A stretch of DNA of 64,000 nt from Lachnospiraceae bacterium AC2031 (GTDB lineage Bacteria; Bacillota; Clostridia; Lachnospirales; Lachnospiraceae), in assembly GCA_000687975.1 (NCBI GenBank), contig JIAB01000001.1:806001-870000 (forward strand). Direction: 5' to 3'. The number at the start of each line of letters is the position of its first letter. Position 1 is the first letter of the stretch. The position numbers and the translations under genes are program-made. The notes under the pieces were generated by a model. It was not told where the DNA came from, did not search any database, and saw nothing but the letters and a program-made list of their open reading frames with translations. Below, in pieces: positions 18,802-64,000 of this stretch.

Positions 18802-18902
18802 GGTGCAGTGGGGACAGACCCCCTTGCACCAATTCATTCGGTGCAGCGGGGACAGACCCCCTTGCACCTAGCGGTGCAAGAGGGGACTGTCCCCGCTGCA
18901 CC
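18802..18902. repeat. Three GGGGAC (REP-like) repeats, two forming an inverted pair
   Basis: Copies of about 29-30 nt begin GGTGCA and end TGCACC: 18802-18830, 18840-18868 and, inverted, 18873-18902. The second and third pair along almost their whole length across a 4-nt loop, like a REP doublet. The core is GGGGACAGWCCCC. The copies fill the gap between the GH16 stop and the GH5 start. Related copies lie at 35787-35870 and 36317-36366. Confidence 0.85.
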
Positions 18903-20414
18903 TTAGTCTATCTTTTCAAGGCGGACGTTACGGATATGGATGGTAGCTGTTGAGCCCTGATTACCCATATTGAACTCTACACGTCCCTTATCGTCGCTCT
19001 CTTCTTTCATATCAAACTCGAACTCAAAGGTCTGCCACTCAGTTGTAAGATCAACTGATGTATCATCAAAGTATCTGATCCAATTTGCTGTAGGTGCTGT
19101 TACTGCAGCCTTCATCTTTCTATCTTCTTCTGCATAAGCTTCGAATGAATACTTATACTTACATCCTTCTTCCATAGGCATCTCTGGCTGTACCAGCTGG
19201 ATTGAATATTCTTCTGAGCCAAAGTCTTCAGTTGAGATTATGATCTCGCCGTCCTTAATCTCAGCTTCGCCCTTGCCACCATTTAGATTTAGGAACTTCC
19301 AGTCAACATCATCTGTCAGATCCTCAGCCACAGAGAAATCTGAATTATGAATAAAGTTACCTGTTTCATCAGCTTCTCTCATCTCAAGAACCTTAACAGG
19401 CTTCTCTACATTCTCGTCATAACTTTCCTTCTGATAGATACGAACGTAATCAACATACATTGCACCTTTCTCGTCAAATGGAGTCGTCTCGTCTGGATCT
19501 CCAGGCCAGTCTCCACCAACTGCTACATTAAGAATTACATGGAATGGCTGATCAAAAGGAGCAGGATATGGCTTCTCGTTGCCACCTGTCCACTTTGAGA
19601 ACCAATCGCTTGTTTCGTAATACTGTTCACCGTCGACATACCATTTAATTACGCCTGGCTCATAATCAACTGCGAATACATGGTACTCCTCTGAAAAATC
19701 TCCACTTGCCAGAGAATATGTACCCTGATTCTGATTATGTGGCTCGCCGTAATGGATTGTTCCATAGTTCATTGTTGTGCTGTCGCCAAGTACCTCAGCA
19801 ATATCTATCTCACCACACTTAGGCCACTGTCCATAGTAGTCCTCATCCTGTGGCATCATCCAGAAAGCAGGAAGATAACCCTTACCCTGTGGGAACTTGA
19901 TTCTAGCTTCGAAACGTCCGTACTTTACGTCATGCTTGTTCTGAGTATTTACACGACCTGAAGCGTAAGATACATTTCCGTCCTCATCCTCAAACTTCTT
20001 AGGCTGAATAACCAGTTCGCCGTTCTCAACAAATGCATACTCATCAGTTGGTATATACTCCTGAAGCTCGTTATTAACCCAACCAACCTGATGTTCCTCA
20101 CGGTTCCAGTCATCCTCGTTCAGTTCTGTTCCGTTAAACTCATCATGCCACACAAGGTGATATCCCTCAGGAACCTCAATCTCATCCTCTGACACATCTG
20201 TCGCGCTTGTGTCAGTGTTAGTAGCTTTTTTAGCCTCTGTCTCAGTTGCCTCAGTATCCTCTTCTGTGTCAGCCTCAGTTGCAACCTCGGTTACAGCCTC
20301 TGTATTCTCAGCAGTTTCCTCAGTCTTACCACAGCCTGATGCTGAAAGAAGCATCATAGCAGCCAGCGAAGTAACTAAAATTCTCTTCTTAGAAATGAAT
20401 CCGTTCTTTCTCAT
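18903..20414 (-). CDS. GH16 beta-glucanase lipoprotein with C-terminal carbohydrate-binding module
   Basis: 503 aa from ATG 20414, chosen for AAGGAGGAA 4 nt upstream. The signal ends SASGC with lipidated Cys28; a Thr/Glu/Ala linker (30-80) follows. The GH16 domain (about 84-335) has the catalytic signature GEIDIAE, nucleophile Glu202 and acid/base Glu207, the form found in lichenases and laminarinases. The C-terminal 150 residues start FIHNSDFS and look like a CBM4/CBM22-type beta sandwich. It would cut beta-1,3/1,4-glucan at the cell surface. Paired half-sites upstream point to control by the adjacent AraC regulator. Confidence 0.93.
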   Translation of the reverse strand: MRKNGFISKKRILVTSLAAMMLLSASGCGKTEETAENTEAVTEVATEADTEEDTEATETEAKKATNTDTSATDVSEDEIEVPEGYHLVWHDEFNGTELNEDDWNREEHQVGWVNNELQEYIPTDEYAFVENGELVIQPKKFEDEDGNVSYASGRVNTQNKHDVKYGRFEARIKFPQGKGYLPAFWMMPQDEDYYGQWPKCGEIDIAEVLGDSTTMNYGTIHYGEPHNQNQGTYSLASGDFSEEYHVFAVDYEPGVIKWYVDGEQYYETSDWFSKWTGGNEKPYPAPFDQPFHVILNVAVGGDWPGDPDETTPFDEKGAMYVDYVRIYQKESYDENVEKPVKVLEMREADETGNFIHNSDFSVAEDLTDDVDWKFLNLNGGKGEAEIKDGEIIISTEDFGSEEYSIQLVQPEMPMEEGCKYKYSFEAYAEEDRKMKAAVTAPTANWIRYFDDTSVDLTTEWQTFEFEFDMKEESDDKGRVEFNMGNQGSTATIHIRNVRLEKID

Positions 20415-27785: not shown

Positions 27786-28811
27786 TTAAACGAGATCTAC
27801 TCCCTTATCGCCGCTGATTATCTCACCAACAACACATGCCTTATCGCCTGTTGACTCAAGTGCAGCTATAGCCTTATCAGCATCTGCAGGATCAACAGCG
27901 ATGATCATTCCAAGACCCATGTTGAATGTGTTATACATCATCTGCTCTGCAATGTCTCCCTTTGCAGCAAGAAGCTTGAAGATTGCAGGTACTTCGTATG
28001 AGTCCTTCTTAACCTGTGCTCTAACACCTTCCGGAAGCATACGTGGAATGTTCTCATAGAATCCACCACCTGTAATGTGGCTGCATCCCTTTATTGTTAC
28101 TCCAGCATTCTTAACTGCCTTAAGGCCCTTTACGTAAATTCTTGTTGGAGCGATAAGAGCTTCACCAAGTGTCTTTCCGAGCTCATCATAATATGTATCA
28201 AGAGACTCCTTAGTCATCTCAAATACTTTTCTTACAAGTGAGAATCCATTACTATGTACGCCTGTTGAAGCGATACCGATAAGTGTATCACCTGGCTTAA
28301 TGTTTTCACCTGTTATAAGGTCTTTCTTATCTACAACACCTACAGCGAATCCTGCAAGATCGTACTCATCTTCTGGCATAAGGTCTGGATGCTCAGCTGT
28401 CTCTCCACCAACCAAAGCTGCCTCTGACTGAATACATCCCTCTGCAACACCACTTACTATAGAAGCGATCTTTTCAGGATAGTTCTTGCCGCAAGCTATA
28501 TAGTCCAGGAAGAATAGTGGCTCTCCACCTGAGCAAGCGATATCATTTACACACATTGCTACAGCATCAATACCGATTGTATCGTGCTTATCCATTACGA
28601 ACGCCAGCTTTACCTTAGTTCCGCAACCATCTGTTCCAGATAACAGAACAGGTTCTTCCATATCCTTAATCTTACTTAAGTCAAATGCGCCAGCAAACCC
28701 TCCAAGTCCTCCAAGTACCTCTGGTCTCATAGTCTTCTTAACGTGCTCCTTCATGAGCTCAACTGACTTGTAACCAGCCTCGATGTCAACACCTGAATTC
28801 TTGTAATCCAT
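27786..28811 (-). CDS. purM: Phosphoribosylformylglycinamidine cyclo-ligase
   Basis: 341 aa. PurM closes the imidazole ring to give AIR. Visible are [14 protein letters not shown], the conserved [28 protein letters not shown] and the glycine-rich THITGGGF-like region (here [14 protein letters not shown]). It is the first gene of purM-purN-purD-clpC, transcribed from a consensus-type promoter at 28889-28917. Confidence 0.97.
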
Positions 28812-29012: not shown

Positions 29013-29539
29013 TTAAGTGCCCTTGGCAACATTTTTCTGTGTTTTGGGTCATTTTTGTTGCTTTTAACGTTTCCTTGCCGCCCTATATGAGGATTTAAGC
29101 AACATTTTTGTTGCTTTTCAGCCTTTTTTGTTGCTTTTCAGCCTTTTTTGTTGCTTCCAGCATTTCCTTGCCGCCCTATATGAGGATTTCTGCAACATTT
29201 TTGTTGCTTTTCAGCATTTTTTGTTGCTTCCAGCATTTCCTTGCCGCCCTATATGAGGATTTCTGCAACATTTTTGTTGCTTTTCAGCATTTTTTGTTGC
29301 TTCCAGCATTTCCTTGCCGCCCTATATGAGGATTTAAGCAACATTTTTGTTGCTTTTCAGCTTTTTTTGTTGCTTCCAGCATTTCCTTGCCGCCCTATAT
29401 GAGGATTTCAGCAACATTTTTGTTGCTTTTCAGCCTTTTTTGTTGCTTCCAGCATTTCCTTGCCGCCCTATATGAGGATTTCAGCAACATTTCTCTGTGT
29501 TTTCAGCTTTTTGTGTTGCTTTTCAGACCAGGCACTTAA
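29013..29539. repeat. 73-nt tandem array, locus 1 (seven units)
   Basis: The 796-nt gap 28812-29607 holds no gene; it carries this array. Elements of 36 nt bounded by GCAACA and TGTTGC start at 29026, 29099, 29192, 29265, 29338, 29411 and 29484. Steps are 73 nt except one of 93, where a 20-nt piece ending TTTTTTGTTGC is duplicated. The 37-nt linkers are nearly identical and contain CCTTGCCGCCCTATATGAGG. The first and last elements are most like those at the other loci. A 9-bp inverted repeat TTAAGTGCC (29013-29021) / GGCACTTAA (29531-29539) encloses the array. Confidence 0.92.
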
Positions 29540-29607: not shown

Positions 29608-30057
29608 TTAGATTACCATTTCAAGCACTGAGCCTAACTGAACCAGTGTAACCTTCTGTCCCTTAAAGATGTTAGAAACAAATGGAGAAGTATAGCTCAT
29701 TGAATATGTCTCACCTGACTTATCTACAACAGTTACATAAGAGCTCTTAATAAAACCTACACTCTTTGTATCAGCATTTTCTACCATGCAGTCAACGATC
29801 TTAAGCTCATCCTGTCTAATATAGTGTATAGATCTCAGTGATCTAAGAATTGTTCTAAATGTGATTAAGAACAGACCAGCTAAGAACAGACTTACAAATA
29901 TAGTAATAGCATCAAAAACTTTTACATACATAAAAATTATTACCGCAAGTAGAAAAGCATCAAACAGGGCAGTTAATATTAATGAACTAATCTCCCTTTT
30001 ATAAAATGAACTCCTGATACTTGTTCTTTCTTCATTATTCGCAATACGCATTTCCAT
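29608..30057 (-). CDS. Small membrane protein of unknown function
   Basis: 149 aa. Two adjacent membrane helices (about residues 26-46 and 50-70, SLILTALFDAFLLAVIIFMYV and TIFVSLFLAGLFLITF) are followed by a soluble C-terminal domain of about 75 residues with a beta-rich pattern, VDKSGETYSMSYTSPFVSNIF, ending QLGSVLEMVI. The shape resembles small NfeD- or DUF3592-like membrane-anchored beta domains, but I cannot assign it. It follows the secreted transglutaminase-like gene by 77 nt. Confidence 0.7.
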   Translation of the reverse strand: MEMRIANNEERTSIRSSFYKREISSLILTALFDAFLLAVIIFMYVKVFDAITIFVSLFLAGLFLITFRTILRSLRSIHYIRQDELKIVDCMVENADTKSVGFIKSSYVTVVDKSGETYSMSYTSPFVSNIFKGQKVTLVQLGSVLEMVI

Positions 30058-47039: not shown

Positions 47040-48317
47040 TTAATCTTCGTCCTCATCCATGGTATCTTCCTCCACTTCGTCTTCGTCATCTTCCGAAGCT
47101 TTGGAAGCCTTGAGCTTGTCCTTGATATTTTTCTTTGTTACCTGTTTCTTTTCTTCTTTGTCTGTTTCTTCTTTATCAGATTCTTCTTTTTCTGATTCAG
47201 TTTTCTTTTTATCTTCTTTTTTTGATTTTTCTTTCTCTTTGTCTTCTTTCTTAGATTCAGTTTTCTTCTTGTCTTCTTTTTTAGGTTCTGCTTTCTTTTT
47301 ATCTTTCTTATCAGACTCTACTTTCTTCTTGTCATCTGAATCTTTGTCCGAATCTTCATCAGACTCTTCGTCTGATTCTTCGTCCGACTTCTTGTTAGGA
47401 ACATAGTTTACCTTAGGTGTCTTACCGTTCTTGATATCATTTCTGTTCTTAACAATTACTGATATAGCAAGGAAGAAGCATATTGCTGCAACTATCTGGC
47501 TGACCTTAAGTCCACCAACCATTAGCGAATCTGTTCTAAGCCACTCTATCCAGAAACGGCCAAGACCATATCCAGCAACATAGATCATAGCAAGCTCACC
47601 ATCAAACTTCTTTTTCTTCCTATATAATAGAAGGAAGATGAGCAGCGCCAGATTCCAAAGTCCCTCATAAAGGAACATAGGATGAACTGTGATACAGGCT
47701 ATACCTTTTACAAGTTCCTGTTTATTCAGCATATCAGAAGTGATTATGCCATCATTTCTAAGCGTCTGAAGATAACCTCTGCTAAAATAGTTTACAGGAA
47801 TTGCCATTCTGAACTTGCTCTGAGTATATGTACCAAAGCATTCTCTATTGAAGAAGTTGCCCCAGCGTCCAACTATCTGTGCCGCTACAACACCAAGTGC
47901 TATAGTATCACCAAAAAGTGGGAAGTTAATCTTTCTCTTACGAGCAAAGATAAAACCAGCAAGGACACCAGCTATAAGTCCACCATACACTGCAAGACCA
48001 CCATTGTGGATGTTGATCATATCAACAAGAGTCTTGCCAATACTCTTTCCAGGCTGAATAAATCTTTCATGATTGAATATTACATAGTAAATTCTTGCGC
48101 CCGCAATAGCCGGAATTACCAGCCAAAGGAAGAAATCAAGATAATCCTCATCATTCTGTCCAGTACGCTGTGCTTCCTTTGAAGCTATAATAAGCGCCAA
48201 TATAAATCCACCAGTTACGCATATAGCATATAGAGGGATTTTTACATTTAATATAGTTATCGTGCTAAGCACCTTTTCAAAAAAGATACCTACACCAGGA
48301 AAGTATATACCCTGCAT
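47040..48317 (-). CDS. lgt: Prolipoprotein diacylglyceryl transferase with long charged tail
   Basis: 425 aa. The first 300 residues are a full Lgt: seven membrane helices, HNGGLAVYGGLI, and the signature GRWGNFFNRECFG. Lgt adds diacylglycerol to the lipobox cysteine of prelipoproteins, such as those at 6904 and 18903. The last 120 or so residues are a Lys/Glu/Asp/Ser tail with repeated KKEDKKK and DEESDEDS text, absent from typical Lgt. Its promoter is at 48339-48366. Confidence 0.94.
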   Translation of the reverse strand: MQGIYFPGVGIFFEKVLSTITILNVKIPLYAICVTGGFILALIIASKEAQRTGQNDEDYLDFFLWLVIPAIAGARIYYVIFNHERFIQPGKSIGKTLVDMINIHNGGLAVYGGLIAGVLAGFIFARKRKINFPLFGDTIALGVVAAQIVGRWGNFFNRECFGTYTQSKFRMAIPVNYFSRGYLQTLRNDGIITSDMLNKQELVKGIACITVHPMFLYEGLWNLALLIFLLLYRKKKKFDGELAMIYVAGYGLGRFWIEWLRTDSLMVGGLKVSQIVAAICFFLAISVIVKNRNDIKNGKTPKVNYVPNKKSDEESDEESDEDSDKDSDDKKKVESDKKDKKKAEPKKEDKKKTESKKEDKEKEKSKKEDKKKTESEKEESDKEETDKEEKKQVTKKNIKDKLKASKASEDDEDEVEEDTMDEDED

Positions 48318-49655: not shown

Positions 49656-49877
49656 TTGATTTCAGCCCCTTCAGCAACATTTTTCTGTGTTTCTCCTCAT
49701 TTGTGTTGCTGCAGCTTCCATTTTTCCCCTGATCCCAGTCACTCCAGCAACATTTTTCGGCATTTTACTCCAATTTTGTTGCTGCAGCTTCTTTTTTTCA
49801 CCTGATTTCAGTGCCTACGGCAACAATTTTCGGTAATTTGCTTCATTTGTGTTGTCGCAGCTTCTTTTGTTGCAACC
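49656..49877. repeat. 73-nt tandem array, locus 2 (three units)
   Basis: The gap 49500-49901 holds no gene apart from the ychF leader and this array. Elements start at 49674, 49747 and 49820, exactly 73 nt apart. Each is 36 nt from GCAACA to TGTTGC (TGTTGT in the third). Linkers of 37 nt begin TGCAGCTTC and contain CTGAT...CAGT, unlike the linkers of the other loci. Confidence 0.9.
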
Positions 49878-63001: not shown

Positions 63002-63760
63002 CTACCAACCAAGATCCATGAGCCAGTTATTCAGAGCTCTTTCTCTATCCTTATCATTCTTTGAAGGATCATTATAGTACTCACCCTTAATGTTACCATC
63101 TACAATGTAGAGAACTCTTGAACATCTTGCTGCAACCTTTGAGTCATGAGTTACCATCATGATAGTTGTTCCTTCTTTGTTGATCTTTGTAAGCTCATCC
63201 ATAACCTCGTTAGAGTTTGCTCGGTTAAGAGCTCCTGTTGGCTCGTCTGCAAAAACCACGCTCGGCTTATTGATAAGACTTCTGCAGATGCAGGCACGCT
63301 GAAGCTGTCCACCAGACACTTCATTTATATCATTGTCTGCAGCTTCGATGATACCCAGTTTTCTCATAAGATCCTCACCAAACTGAGTTACTTCTTTACG
63401 AGATCTCTTAAGCTTCTTACTCTGAAGTCCTGGAAGAAGGATGTTATCTAAGATAGTCAGGTTCTTCATCATGAACATCTGCTGGAAGATAAATCCCATC
63501 TCATCAAGTCTTACATCCGATAACTCATTCTTCTTAAGCTTAGTGATATCCTTTCCTTTAAAAAGAACTGTACCACTTGTTGCGTTGTCCATGCCAGATA
63601 CACTGTAGAGAAGTGTTGACTTTCCTGATGCGGACGGTCCCATGATAGCAACCATCTCGCCCTCCTCTACTGTAAAGTTTACATTCTTAAGTACGTTGTT
63701 CTGCCTTTTATCTGTTACATATGTTTTGCATAAATCCTTAACTTCAATTACTGCTCCCAT
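63002..63760 (-). CDS. ABC transporter ATP-binding protein, BceA/MacB type
   Basis: 252 aa. Walker A GPSASGKSTLL, Q-loop GFIFQQMFMM, signature EVSGGQLQRACICRSL, Walker B VVFADEPTGALN and the H-loop VTHDSKVAA. This set fits the MacB/LolD/BceA family that powers FtsX-like permeases in antimicrobial-peptide detoxification or lipoprotein release. Its own terminator follows, so no permease is co-transcribed downstream. A partner may lie right of the window, beyond the repeat array. Confidence 0.92.
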   Translation of the reverse strand: MGAVIEVKDLCKTYVTDKRQNNVLKNVNFTVEEGEMVAIMGPSASGKSTLLYSVSGMDNATSGTVLFKGKDITKLKKNELSDVRLDEMGFIFQQMFMMKNLTILDNILLPGLQSKKLKRSRKEVTQFGEDLMRKLGIIEAADNDINEVSGGQLQRACICRSLINKPSVVFADEPTGALNRANSNEVMDELTKINKEGTTIMMVTHDSKVAARCSRVLYIVDGNIKGEYYNDPSKNDKDRERALNNWLMDLGW

Positions 63761-63783: not shown

Positions 63784-64000
63784 TTGTGTTGCTTTTTTGT
63801 GTGTCGCTTTTTTGTGTGTCGCTTTTTTGTGTGTCGCTTTTTTGTGTGTCGCTTTTCGCCCTTCAAACCGCCTTAATCCATCCCTGTCGGCAACACTTTT
63901 CATCTTTTTCTTTTATTTGTGTTGCTTTTCACCCTTCAAAACGCCTTAATTCATCCCTGTCGGCAACACTTTTCATCTTTTTCTTTTATTTGTGTTGCTT
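63784..64000. repeat. 73-nt tandem array, locus 3 (runs to window edge), with 15-nt repeats
   Basis: Elements of 36 nt start at 63890 and 63963, 73 nt apart, bounded by GCAACA and TGTTGC. The linkers (37 nt) read TTTTCRCCCTTCAAA...CCTGTCG and differ from the other loci. To the left, 63784-63852 is four to five copies of a 15-nt unit GTGTGTCGCTTTTTT, ending where a preceding element would end, so it looks like an expanded right half-element. The array continues past the edge. Confidence 0.9.

Follow-up and report, generated by a model that had tools for sequence, protein, structure and literature searches.

Scattered tandem arrays of a palindromic 73-bp DNA repeat and their association with a probable nuclease gene in Lachnospiraceae

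In the chromosome of Lachnospiraceae bacterium AC2031 a locus that we call array 1 alternates palindromic elements with linkers at a nearly constant period, and the question it raises is what kind of repeat this is and what acts upon it. The locus lies within a window, the whole 64,000 bp stretch of DNA that was analysed (bases 806001–870000 of a one-contig genome of 3,191,482 bp, here G000; other G-numbers denote genomes of the genus, of which 61 were searched, and L-numbers denote loci). As originally predicted, array 1 holds seven elements of the form GCAACA-N24-TGTTGC, with successive steps of 73, 93, 73, 73, 73 and 73 bases (Table 1), the 93-base step being 73 bases plus an internal duplication of 20 bases. 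Its neighbours are a 149-aa gene without a Pfam match (29608–30057, −) and an AIR-synthase-family, purM-like gene (27786–28811, −).

Table 1. Arrays and bracketing repeat in the window (window coordinates unless stated otherwise).
Feature	Position	Strand	Remarks
Array 1	29013–29539	−	seven 36-bp elements with 37-bp linkers; A-rich (leading) strand is −
Array 1, element 1	29026–29061	−	GCAACA...TGTTGC arms
Array 1, element 2	29099–29134	−	followed by the 93 step, due to a 20-base duplication in 29105–29156
Array 1, element 3	29192–29227	−	
Array 1, element 4	29265–29300	−	
Array 1, element 5	29338–29373	−	
Array 1, element 6	29411–29446	−	
Array 1, element 7	29484–29519	−	
Array 2	49657–49868	−	exact elements 49674–49709 and 49747–49782; third, weaker unit, R1 model match 49801–49854
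Array 3	63837–64000 (start)	−	runs outside the window to genome position ~870231; five elements in total
Inverted repeat, 9 bp, bracketing array 1	29013–29021 TTAAGTGCC, 29531–29539 GGCACTTAA	.	read directly

Within the window, GCAACA-N18..30-TGTTGC occurs at 11 sites against 0.04 expected (100 shuffles, the largest count being 1), and the geometry of array 1 does recur at two further loci. Array 2 lies between a His-phosphatase-family gene and ychF, and array 3 is flanked by the genes for an FtsX-type permease, outside the window, and for an ABC ATPase (63002–63760, −); in the relative G029 an array is found between the orthologues of this same permease/ABC ATPase pair. The linkers of different loci had been thought unrelated, but a per-position comparison of 53 aligned units reveals that they are related: on the A-rich strand, the units have in common nnnnnAAGGGnnAAAA (AAGGGnnAAAA) before GCAACA and TGGAGnnnCTGAAAnnAGG after TGTTGC.

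Several other repeats were observed in the window. The 9-bp inverted repeat around array 1 is placed as if the array had entered a hairpin loop, and none was noticed elsewhere by eye. Between array 3 and the start of the ABC ATPase gene a 15-bp repeat, TGTGTCGCTTTTTTG, is present in 4.8 copies with 98% match (63785–63856), and looks derived from an element end. A tandem repeat of period 38 (18802–18903, 2.9 copies) has a unit with a strong palindrome, GGTGCAGAGGGGACAGACCCCCCTGCACC, and nested 12-, 15-, 30- and 60-bp repeats (47129–47389) lie inside a 425-aa gene (47040–48317).

A search of the whole genome found 66 GCAACA...TGTTGC sites and none for the reversed control, with the 73 spacing kept elsewhere; some sites are isolated with other spacing (for example at 539, 1073, 1351 and 2956 kb). 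A sequence-only unit model (R1), built from 53 units of three genomes, gave 96 matches at E ≤ 1 in G000, of which 93 (E ≤ 0.026) fall in 18 loci (150 of 2000 first-look candidates scored), and the remaining three look like chance. All 13 loci at 504–1549 kb are on the − strand and all five at 1745–2109 kb on the +. The dnaA gene is at 1714 kb, and the GC skew of 20 sampled stretches changes sign near dnaA and once more somewhere within 60–220 kb; by this reckoning 18 of 18 loci have their A-rich strand as the leading strand, − left of dnaA and + right of it, and the orientation is constant in this sense. Long ORFs in these sampled stretches also favour the leading strand (57 of 70), and the chance that gene orientation by itself would produce 18 of 18 is low but not negligible. 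The loci are confined to 0.50–2.11 Mb, with none from there through the terminus, and are placed asymmetrically about the origin, 13 to its left out to 1.2 Mb and five to its right only to 0.4 Mb. In eight genomes, 48 of 51 array rows have flanks with a positive skew on the A-rich strand (exceptions L046, L084 and L088). The measure leans on composition, since the excess of A over T in the unit defines the A-strand and purines are enriched on leading strands.

One G000 array lies after comEC (Pfam Competence, 2.2e-51) and before a 274-aa gene, designated D (genome position 1486259–1487080, outside the window); the other 17 of the 18 are not next to D. At E ≤ 1e-20 D is present in 18 of the 61 genus genomes. 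When 12 aligned D proteins were searched against named genomes, 118 relatives were obtained, and the best 80 of the 118, which were examined, are mostly from Lachnospiraceae (isolates XBB2008, RM5, P6A3 and LC2019 and many MAGs, largely from rumen). Among these best 80, an array of 68–79 bp units lies at most 700 bp from D at 44 of the 59 closest loci. The remainder of those loci contains 10 arrays in 266.8 kb, which makes arrays 15.6 times as frequent near D, and none was present in 120 kb sampled from G000. The other 15 close loci have no array within 700 bp, some of them being cut by contig ends. The arrays stand upstream of D, downstream of it or on both sides. Seven of 47 D arrays are antisense to D, and all 47, these seven included, are on the leading strand as judged by a skew computed with the array included. 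At 21 further D loci we found three 64-bp arrays, one 85-bp, two 72-bp and, on a fragment, one 74-bp array, and no array in the range searched at the others.

At the 50 close D loci with at least 1.5 kb upstream, a comEC match lies upstream of D in 38 and is absent in 12; an array is near D at 29 of the 38 and at 10 of the 12, and the association goes with D rather than with comEC, bearing in mind that many D loci share one comEC position. Loci L033, L099, L081 and L085 are instances in which comEC, the DNA-uptake channel gene, is next to both array and D.

The D protein belongs to no Pfam family, apart from stray single-member matches with E no better than 0.005. In its C-terminal half D matches the end of the PADLOC candidate PDC-S68 (5.7e-27) and, partially, AAA ATPase/helicase proteins on plasmids (7 records). 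The viral_contigs collection held no D relative; three short phage records match D, one of them covering 83% of it at 32% identity. An AlphaFold model from 75 sequences (pLDDT 91.7, pTM 0.65) has Foldseek matches to the R2 retrotransposon endonuclease, DrdV (probability 0.99), XisH, FAN1, MunI and BamHI, none with E below 0.001, and an N-terminal helical hairpin that resembles prefoldin. With this better model an AP2-like integrase domain, considered for the N-terminus, was dropped. Residues R161, S162, E165, P194-D195-F196, E206 and W209-E210-H211 are invariant in the 75 sequences; they include the acidic residues E165, D195 (in PDF), E206 and E210, and the position of the motif lysine is not evident. 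Alignment A3 left out L129, L170, L175, L176, L185 and L194 on account of stops or short length. The fold match is weak, and D is called a probable PD-(D/E)XK nuclease.

Beside D, species without any R1 score nevertheless have tandem arrays with this geometry, whose palindromic arms are different: GGCTATAA, GGCTAATCAA, GGTAACA, GGCTAACC, CGGCTAAG and others. Of 47 D arrays, 26 have a best inverted repeat that scores at least 8, a score reached by 0.6% of composition-preserving shuffles. An alignment of 32 units whose arms differ has 246 cells, 92.3% of them paired, a percentage biased upward by the choice of these rows to show arms, which makes the shuffle test of the 47 D arrays the fairer one; 55 cells are changed on both sides and three on one side. 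None of 500 shuffles reaches that percentage or that two-sided count, and when the partner is slid along, pairing never exceeds 47%. Alignment A4 was made without L035 and L045. In the arms of G033 and G026 an internal A-A mismatch recurs in eight of 10 elements (two of four and six of six, respectively), all of them lying away from or upstream of the D array, and such a mismatch would suit protein reading of the sequence more than strand pairing.

The arms also track the phylogeny of D. Over 43 loci, D identity and arm similarity are correlated (Mantel r 0.30, with one of 2000 permutations as high), and r is 0.18 among pairs under 70% identity. Paralogs of D in one genome have differing arms (L127, L146, L161), and D proteins 91% identical in two genomes have a common arm, GCGAACAAAA (L146, L159).

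Away from D, 20 stretches of 10 genomes were read for comparison with the D-locus arm. The scattered arrays of G000 share it. Scattered arrays carry the arm of their own D locus in four of six further genomes compared and partly in the other two, G053 and G006. One contig each away from D in G045 (C26), G033 (C328) and G026 (C51) matches the genome's own D locus, and G020 has GGTAACA arms on four of four further contigs, with a right arm TGTTACC versus TATTACC at its D locus; two of these contigs end and begin with like units and are perhaps halves of one array. The partial cases are contig C11 of G006, with one D-type element and three of a variant, and contig C8 of G053, with mostly TACTAACA and one D-type element. 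In G045 and G013, 12 of 13 exact GGCTATAA arms lie at the D locus. Two genomes with no detected D use one arm throughout (G027 on five of five contigs, G035 on three of three). Contig C216 of G009, a genome lacking a D array for comparison, has GGCAGACACA arms, and contig C143 of G018 held no readable array. We favour with moderate confidence a reading in which a palindromic DNA repeat, dispersed as tandem arrays, has in D a cognate nuclease, the system acting on DNA.

How far the arrays extend among relatives depends on the search. Exact sequence found them in three of 61 genus genomes and in one of 397 family genomes, that one being G000, and gave no matches in the genome contig and viral contig collections (near records possibly left out). 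The narrow lineage that this survey suggested is misleading, for other species use other arms. R1 finds arrays in 15 of the 61 genus genomes, and R2, a covariance model of the arm-paired unit trained on D-locus arrays, in 26, still missing some (an array of G014 was found by TRF); 32 of the 61 have no match with R1 or R2. Several relatives thus have arrays, and in them the 73 spacing is kept; neither of the two outcomes named beforehand as refuting the prediction was observed. With R1 the correlation with D across the genus is not significant (seven of 18 genomes with D versus eight of 43, p 0.11); with R1 and R2 together the figures are 17 of 18 versus 12 of 43, a comparison biased by the training of R2 on D-locus arrays. 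Arrays without D at E ≤ 0.001 are found in G028, G036, G043, G044 and G047 (the last three 69–88% complete), and G027 and G035 have scattered arrays with no D at E ≤ 1e-20. Since arrays persist in genomes without detected D, D is not needed for their persistence and the D–array link is not absolute.

The period is more constant than its parts. Counting steps of up to 80 bases, which leaves out the 93-base ones, 134 of 166 are 73 and 160 are 72–74 (49 arrays, eight genomes). The modal element-plus-linker form of a row is 36+37 in G000 (17 of 18 array rows, one array entering twice), 35+38 in G028, G029, G031, G041 and G057 (24 of 25 rows), and 36+38 in G002 (four of five rows with steps). The period therefore stays at 73 while the split differs between genomes; array by array, element and linker length show no anticorrelation (r −0.06), the contrast of 35+38 and 36+37 being one between genomes. 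An orthologous array beside a LysR-family gene (97.7% identical) is 35+38 in G028 and 36+37 in G000, and by eye a base has been added to the element and another removed from the end of the linker. The predicted selection on element ends and on period is supported. Just upstream of the arrays at L041, L043 and L044 (G002) is another structured repeat (~CACAACACATGTG...GACGAGCGTGCGACATGAGATA).

The suggestion that 73 nt amounts to about seven turns of DNA is borne out by the A-tracts. Treating each 72–75 bp unit as a circle, the power of AAA positions is highest at harmonic 7 (10.5 bp), with z 12.5 for the GCAACA type (44 loci) and z 9.1 for other arms (43 arrays), values that are indicative since the arrays are related by descent; harmonic 8 is also raised (z 4.3) in the GCAACA-type set. 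The 64-bp arrays beside distant D had no clear 10.5-bp phasing. That the unit spans whole turns, with its A-tracts facing the same side, is therefore a property of the 73–74 bp group. The 64-bp arrays in question adjoin the distant D relatives L179, L190 and L192 (Levyella).

Phasing of this kind could also serve chromosome architecture, the arrays being curved platforms, kept for their function, for a nucleoid or segregation protein (or a non-cutting D) that reads their polarity relative to the replication fork. The seven A-tracts per unit, found in arm families that otherwise share little, the constancy of the period under a changing split, the orientation tied to replication and the confinement of all 18 loci, with none on through the terminus, are in its favour. 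Against it, array positions differ between close species, 32 of the 61 genus genomes have no match with either model, placement around the origin is not symmetric and no binding protein is known. We consider this explanation unlikely, albeit the one that survives best beside the cognate-nuclease reading.

At comparable sites arrays are present in some relatives and absent in others, which favours the reading with D as cognate nuclease. At the ychF site of array 2, three units are present in G028 and none in G041, G036 and G002, with flanks partly similar (G044 is cut by a contig end, G029 has other sequence there, and the start was not located in G057). At the site of array 1, before the purM-like gene, no array was found in 11 of 11 relatives, though the sequence of G047 and G043 stops at 204 and 361 bp, respectively, and the G000 array begins 202 bp upstream; with these contig cuts and a differing neighbour gene in several relatives, this is weak evidence that array 1 was gained in G000. 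In G002 the end of comEC (by eye) is followed by one array unit and an N-terminal D remnant, and G042 has a D remnant with no array elements nearby. The arrays might alternatively be passive minisatellites, old tandem duplications spread by recombination with D merely a frequent neighbour. Homogenisation within loci and the 20-base duplications do resemble slippage or unequal exchange, and some genomes keep arrays without D, but the palindromic arms co-vary, the A-tracts stay in helical phase, unlinked loci of one genome have a common arm, and arrays lie beside D both with and without comEC. Such an origin is improbable. To much the same degree we doubt a replication-oriented nucleoprotein system in which the arm would be an address peculiar to each genome, the 73-bp unit would be kept at seven turns to let D or a partner assemble on one face of curved DNA, and cleavage would lead both to array spread and to discrimination of own from foreign DNA beside comEC.

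More doubtful still is a role in defence or in marking self from non-self, with D a restriction-like enzyme, the arrays genome-specific marks or sinks, and comEC the link to DNA uptake. The matches of its nuclease domain to the C-terminus of PDC-S68 and to plasmid proteins, the presence of comEC upstream at 38 of 50 loci and the differing arms of different genomes would fit. Eighteen loci per 3.2 Mb are, however, too few to mark most DNA, D also occurs with no comEC match nearby, and arrays are kept without D in G028 and with only a D remnant in G002. The least probable explanation, a role as RNA elements transcribed as hairpin arrays in 3′ UTRs, has in its favour that arrays are often found behind a same-strand stop codon and that their arms could pair as a stem, but the window has no Rfam match at the gathering threshold, one-sided mismatches within GCAACA-type arrays are hardly more often of G-U than of A-C type (23 versus 19, with 36 other mismatches and six compensated) where important RNA pairing would lead one to expect more wobble, arm changes are 55 two-sided to three one-sided, and leading-strand orientation is kept both by arrays behind an apparent terminator of the upstream gene (by eye) and by the seven antisense to D. 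On the wobble counts and the Rfam result in the window the RNA hairpin was rejected. Of the original prediction, then, the element ends, the period, the orientation and the seven turns have held up, while the unrelated linkers have not and an RNA role is without support. The gene D and the genome-to-genome differences in the arms lie beyond the window from which it was made.

The reading we prefer, a dispersed palindromic repeat with D as its cognate nuclease, suggests the following mechanism. Each unit consists of an inverted-repeat element of ~35–38 bp and a linker, 73–74 bp in all, which makes seven turns with the A-tracts on one face. D, with its predicted helical hairpin and PD-(D/E)XK-type nuclease domain, would recognise the arms on double-stranded, curved DNA and cut or nick there. 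Replication-coupled repair would then copy units, lengthening arrays and seeding new ones, and copying of units after D cuts would keep the arrays of one genome on one arm and in one orientation to the replication fork. D may in this way spread the arrays.

Scattered arrays together with D point to an unrecognised enzyme-and-repeat system in rumen-type gut bacteria, and a search of open PMC papers found no description of it. If the reading is correct, nuclease-plus-palindrome repeat systems evolved at least twice in bacteria, from unrelated enzymes, and a function would be assigned both to an unnamed protein family and to one class of repeats between the genes of rumen-type bacteria. The genus offers a natural series of D proteins and matching arms in which recognition is directly testable, and the conserved seven-turn unit is a rare case of helical phasing readable from the evolution of sequence.

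The arrays resemble several known systems in part. Satellite DNA conserves monomer length while its sequence changes in concert within a genome, and the present arrays likewise keep unit length and change in concert; unlike satellites, they are short arrays at many loci, with palindromic arms and a nuclease gene beside one. CRISPR arrays alternate ~36 and 37 nt, as do these, with identical repeats and unique spacers. A CRISPR-like array was rejected here, as the linkers are near-identical within an array; the element interiors also vary and the arrays are scattered. In type III toxin–antitoxin systems (ToxIN) a tandem-repeat array stands directly upstream of a nuclease toxin gene, much as an array stands beside the predicted nuclease gene D, but arrays occur on either or both sides of D, 17 of the 18 G000 arrays have no D, and the unit length is another.

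The closest parallel is with REP/REPIN sequences and their RAYT (TnpA-REP) proteins, which are described as dispersed intergenic palindromes and a nuclease gene flanked by cognate palindromes, co-evolving, with different families in different genomes (PMC2817692, PMC6006769). In like manner palindromes flank D (44 of 59 loci) and match the scattered copies (four of six genomes, partly in G053 and G006). The replication-tied orientation of the arrays may recall elements whose target is the template of the lagging strand (PMC6006769). The differences are equally clear. Unlike the HuH tyrosine (Y1) transposase of RAYT, D has one invariant His (H211) and no conserved H-x-H in 75 sequences; it has no Pfam transposase match, and its model weakly resembles restriction-like nucleases. 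All units of a locus are on one strand (44 of 44 loci scanned), unlike the inverted REP pairs of BIMEs and REPINs, and the units, unlike REP, are head-to-tail, 73–74 bp long, with phased A-tracts and an orientation tied to replication. Since enzyme, repeat orientation and unit all differ, the array–D system is not a member of REP/RAYT; it would appear instead to be one that works like REP/RAYT and is built from unrelated parts.
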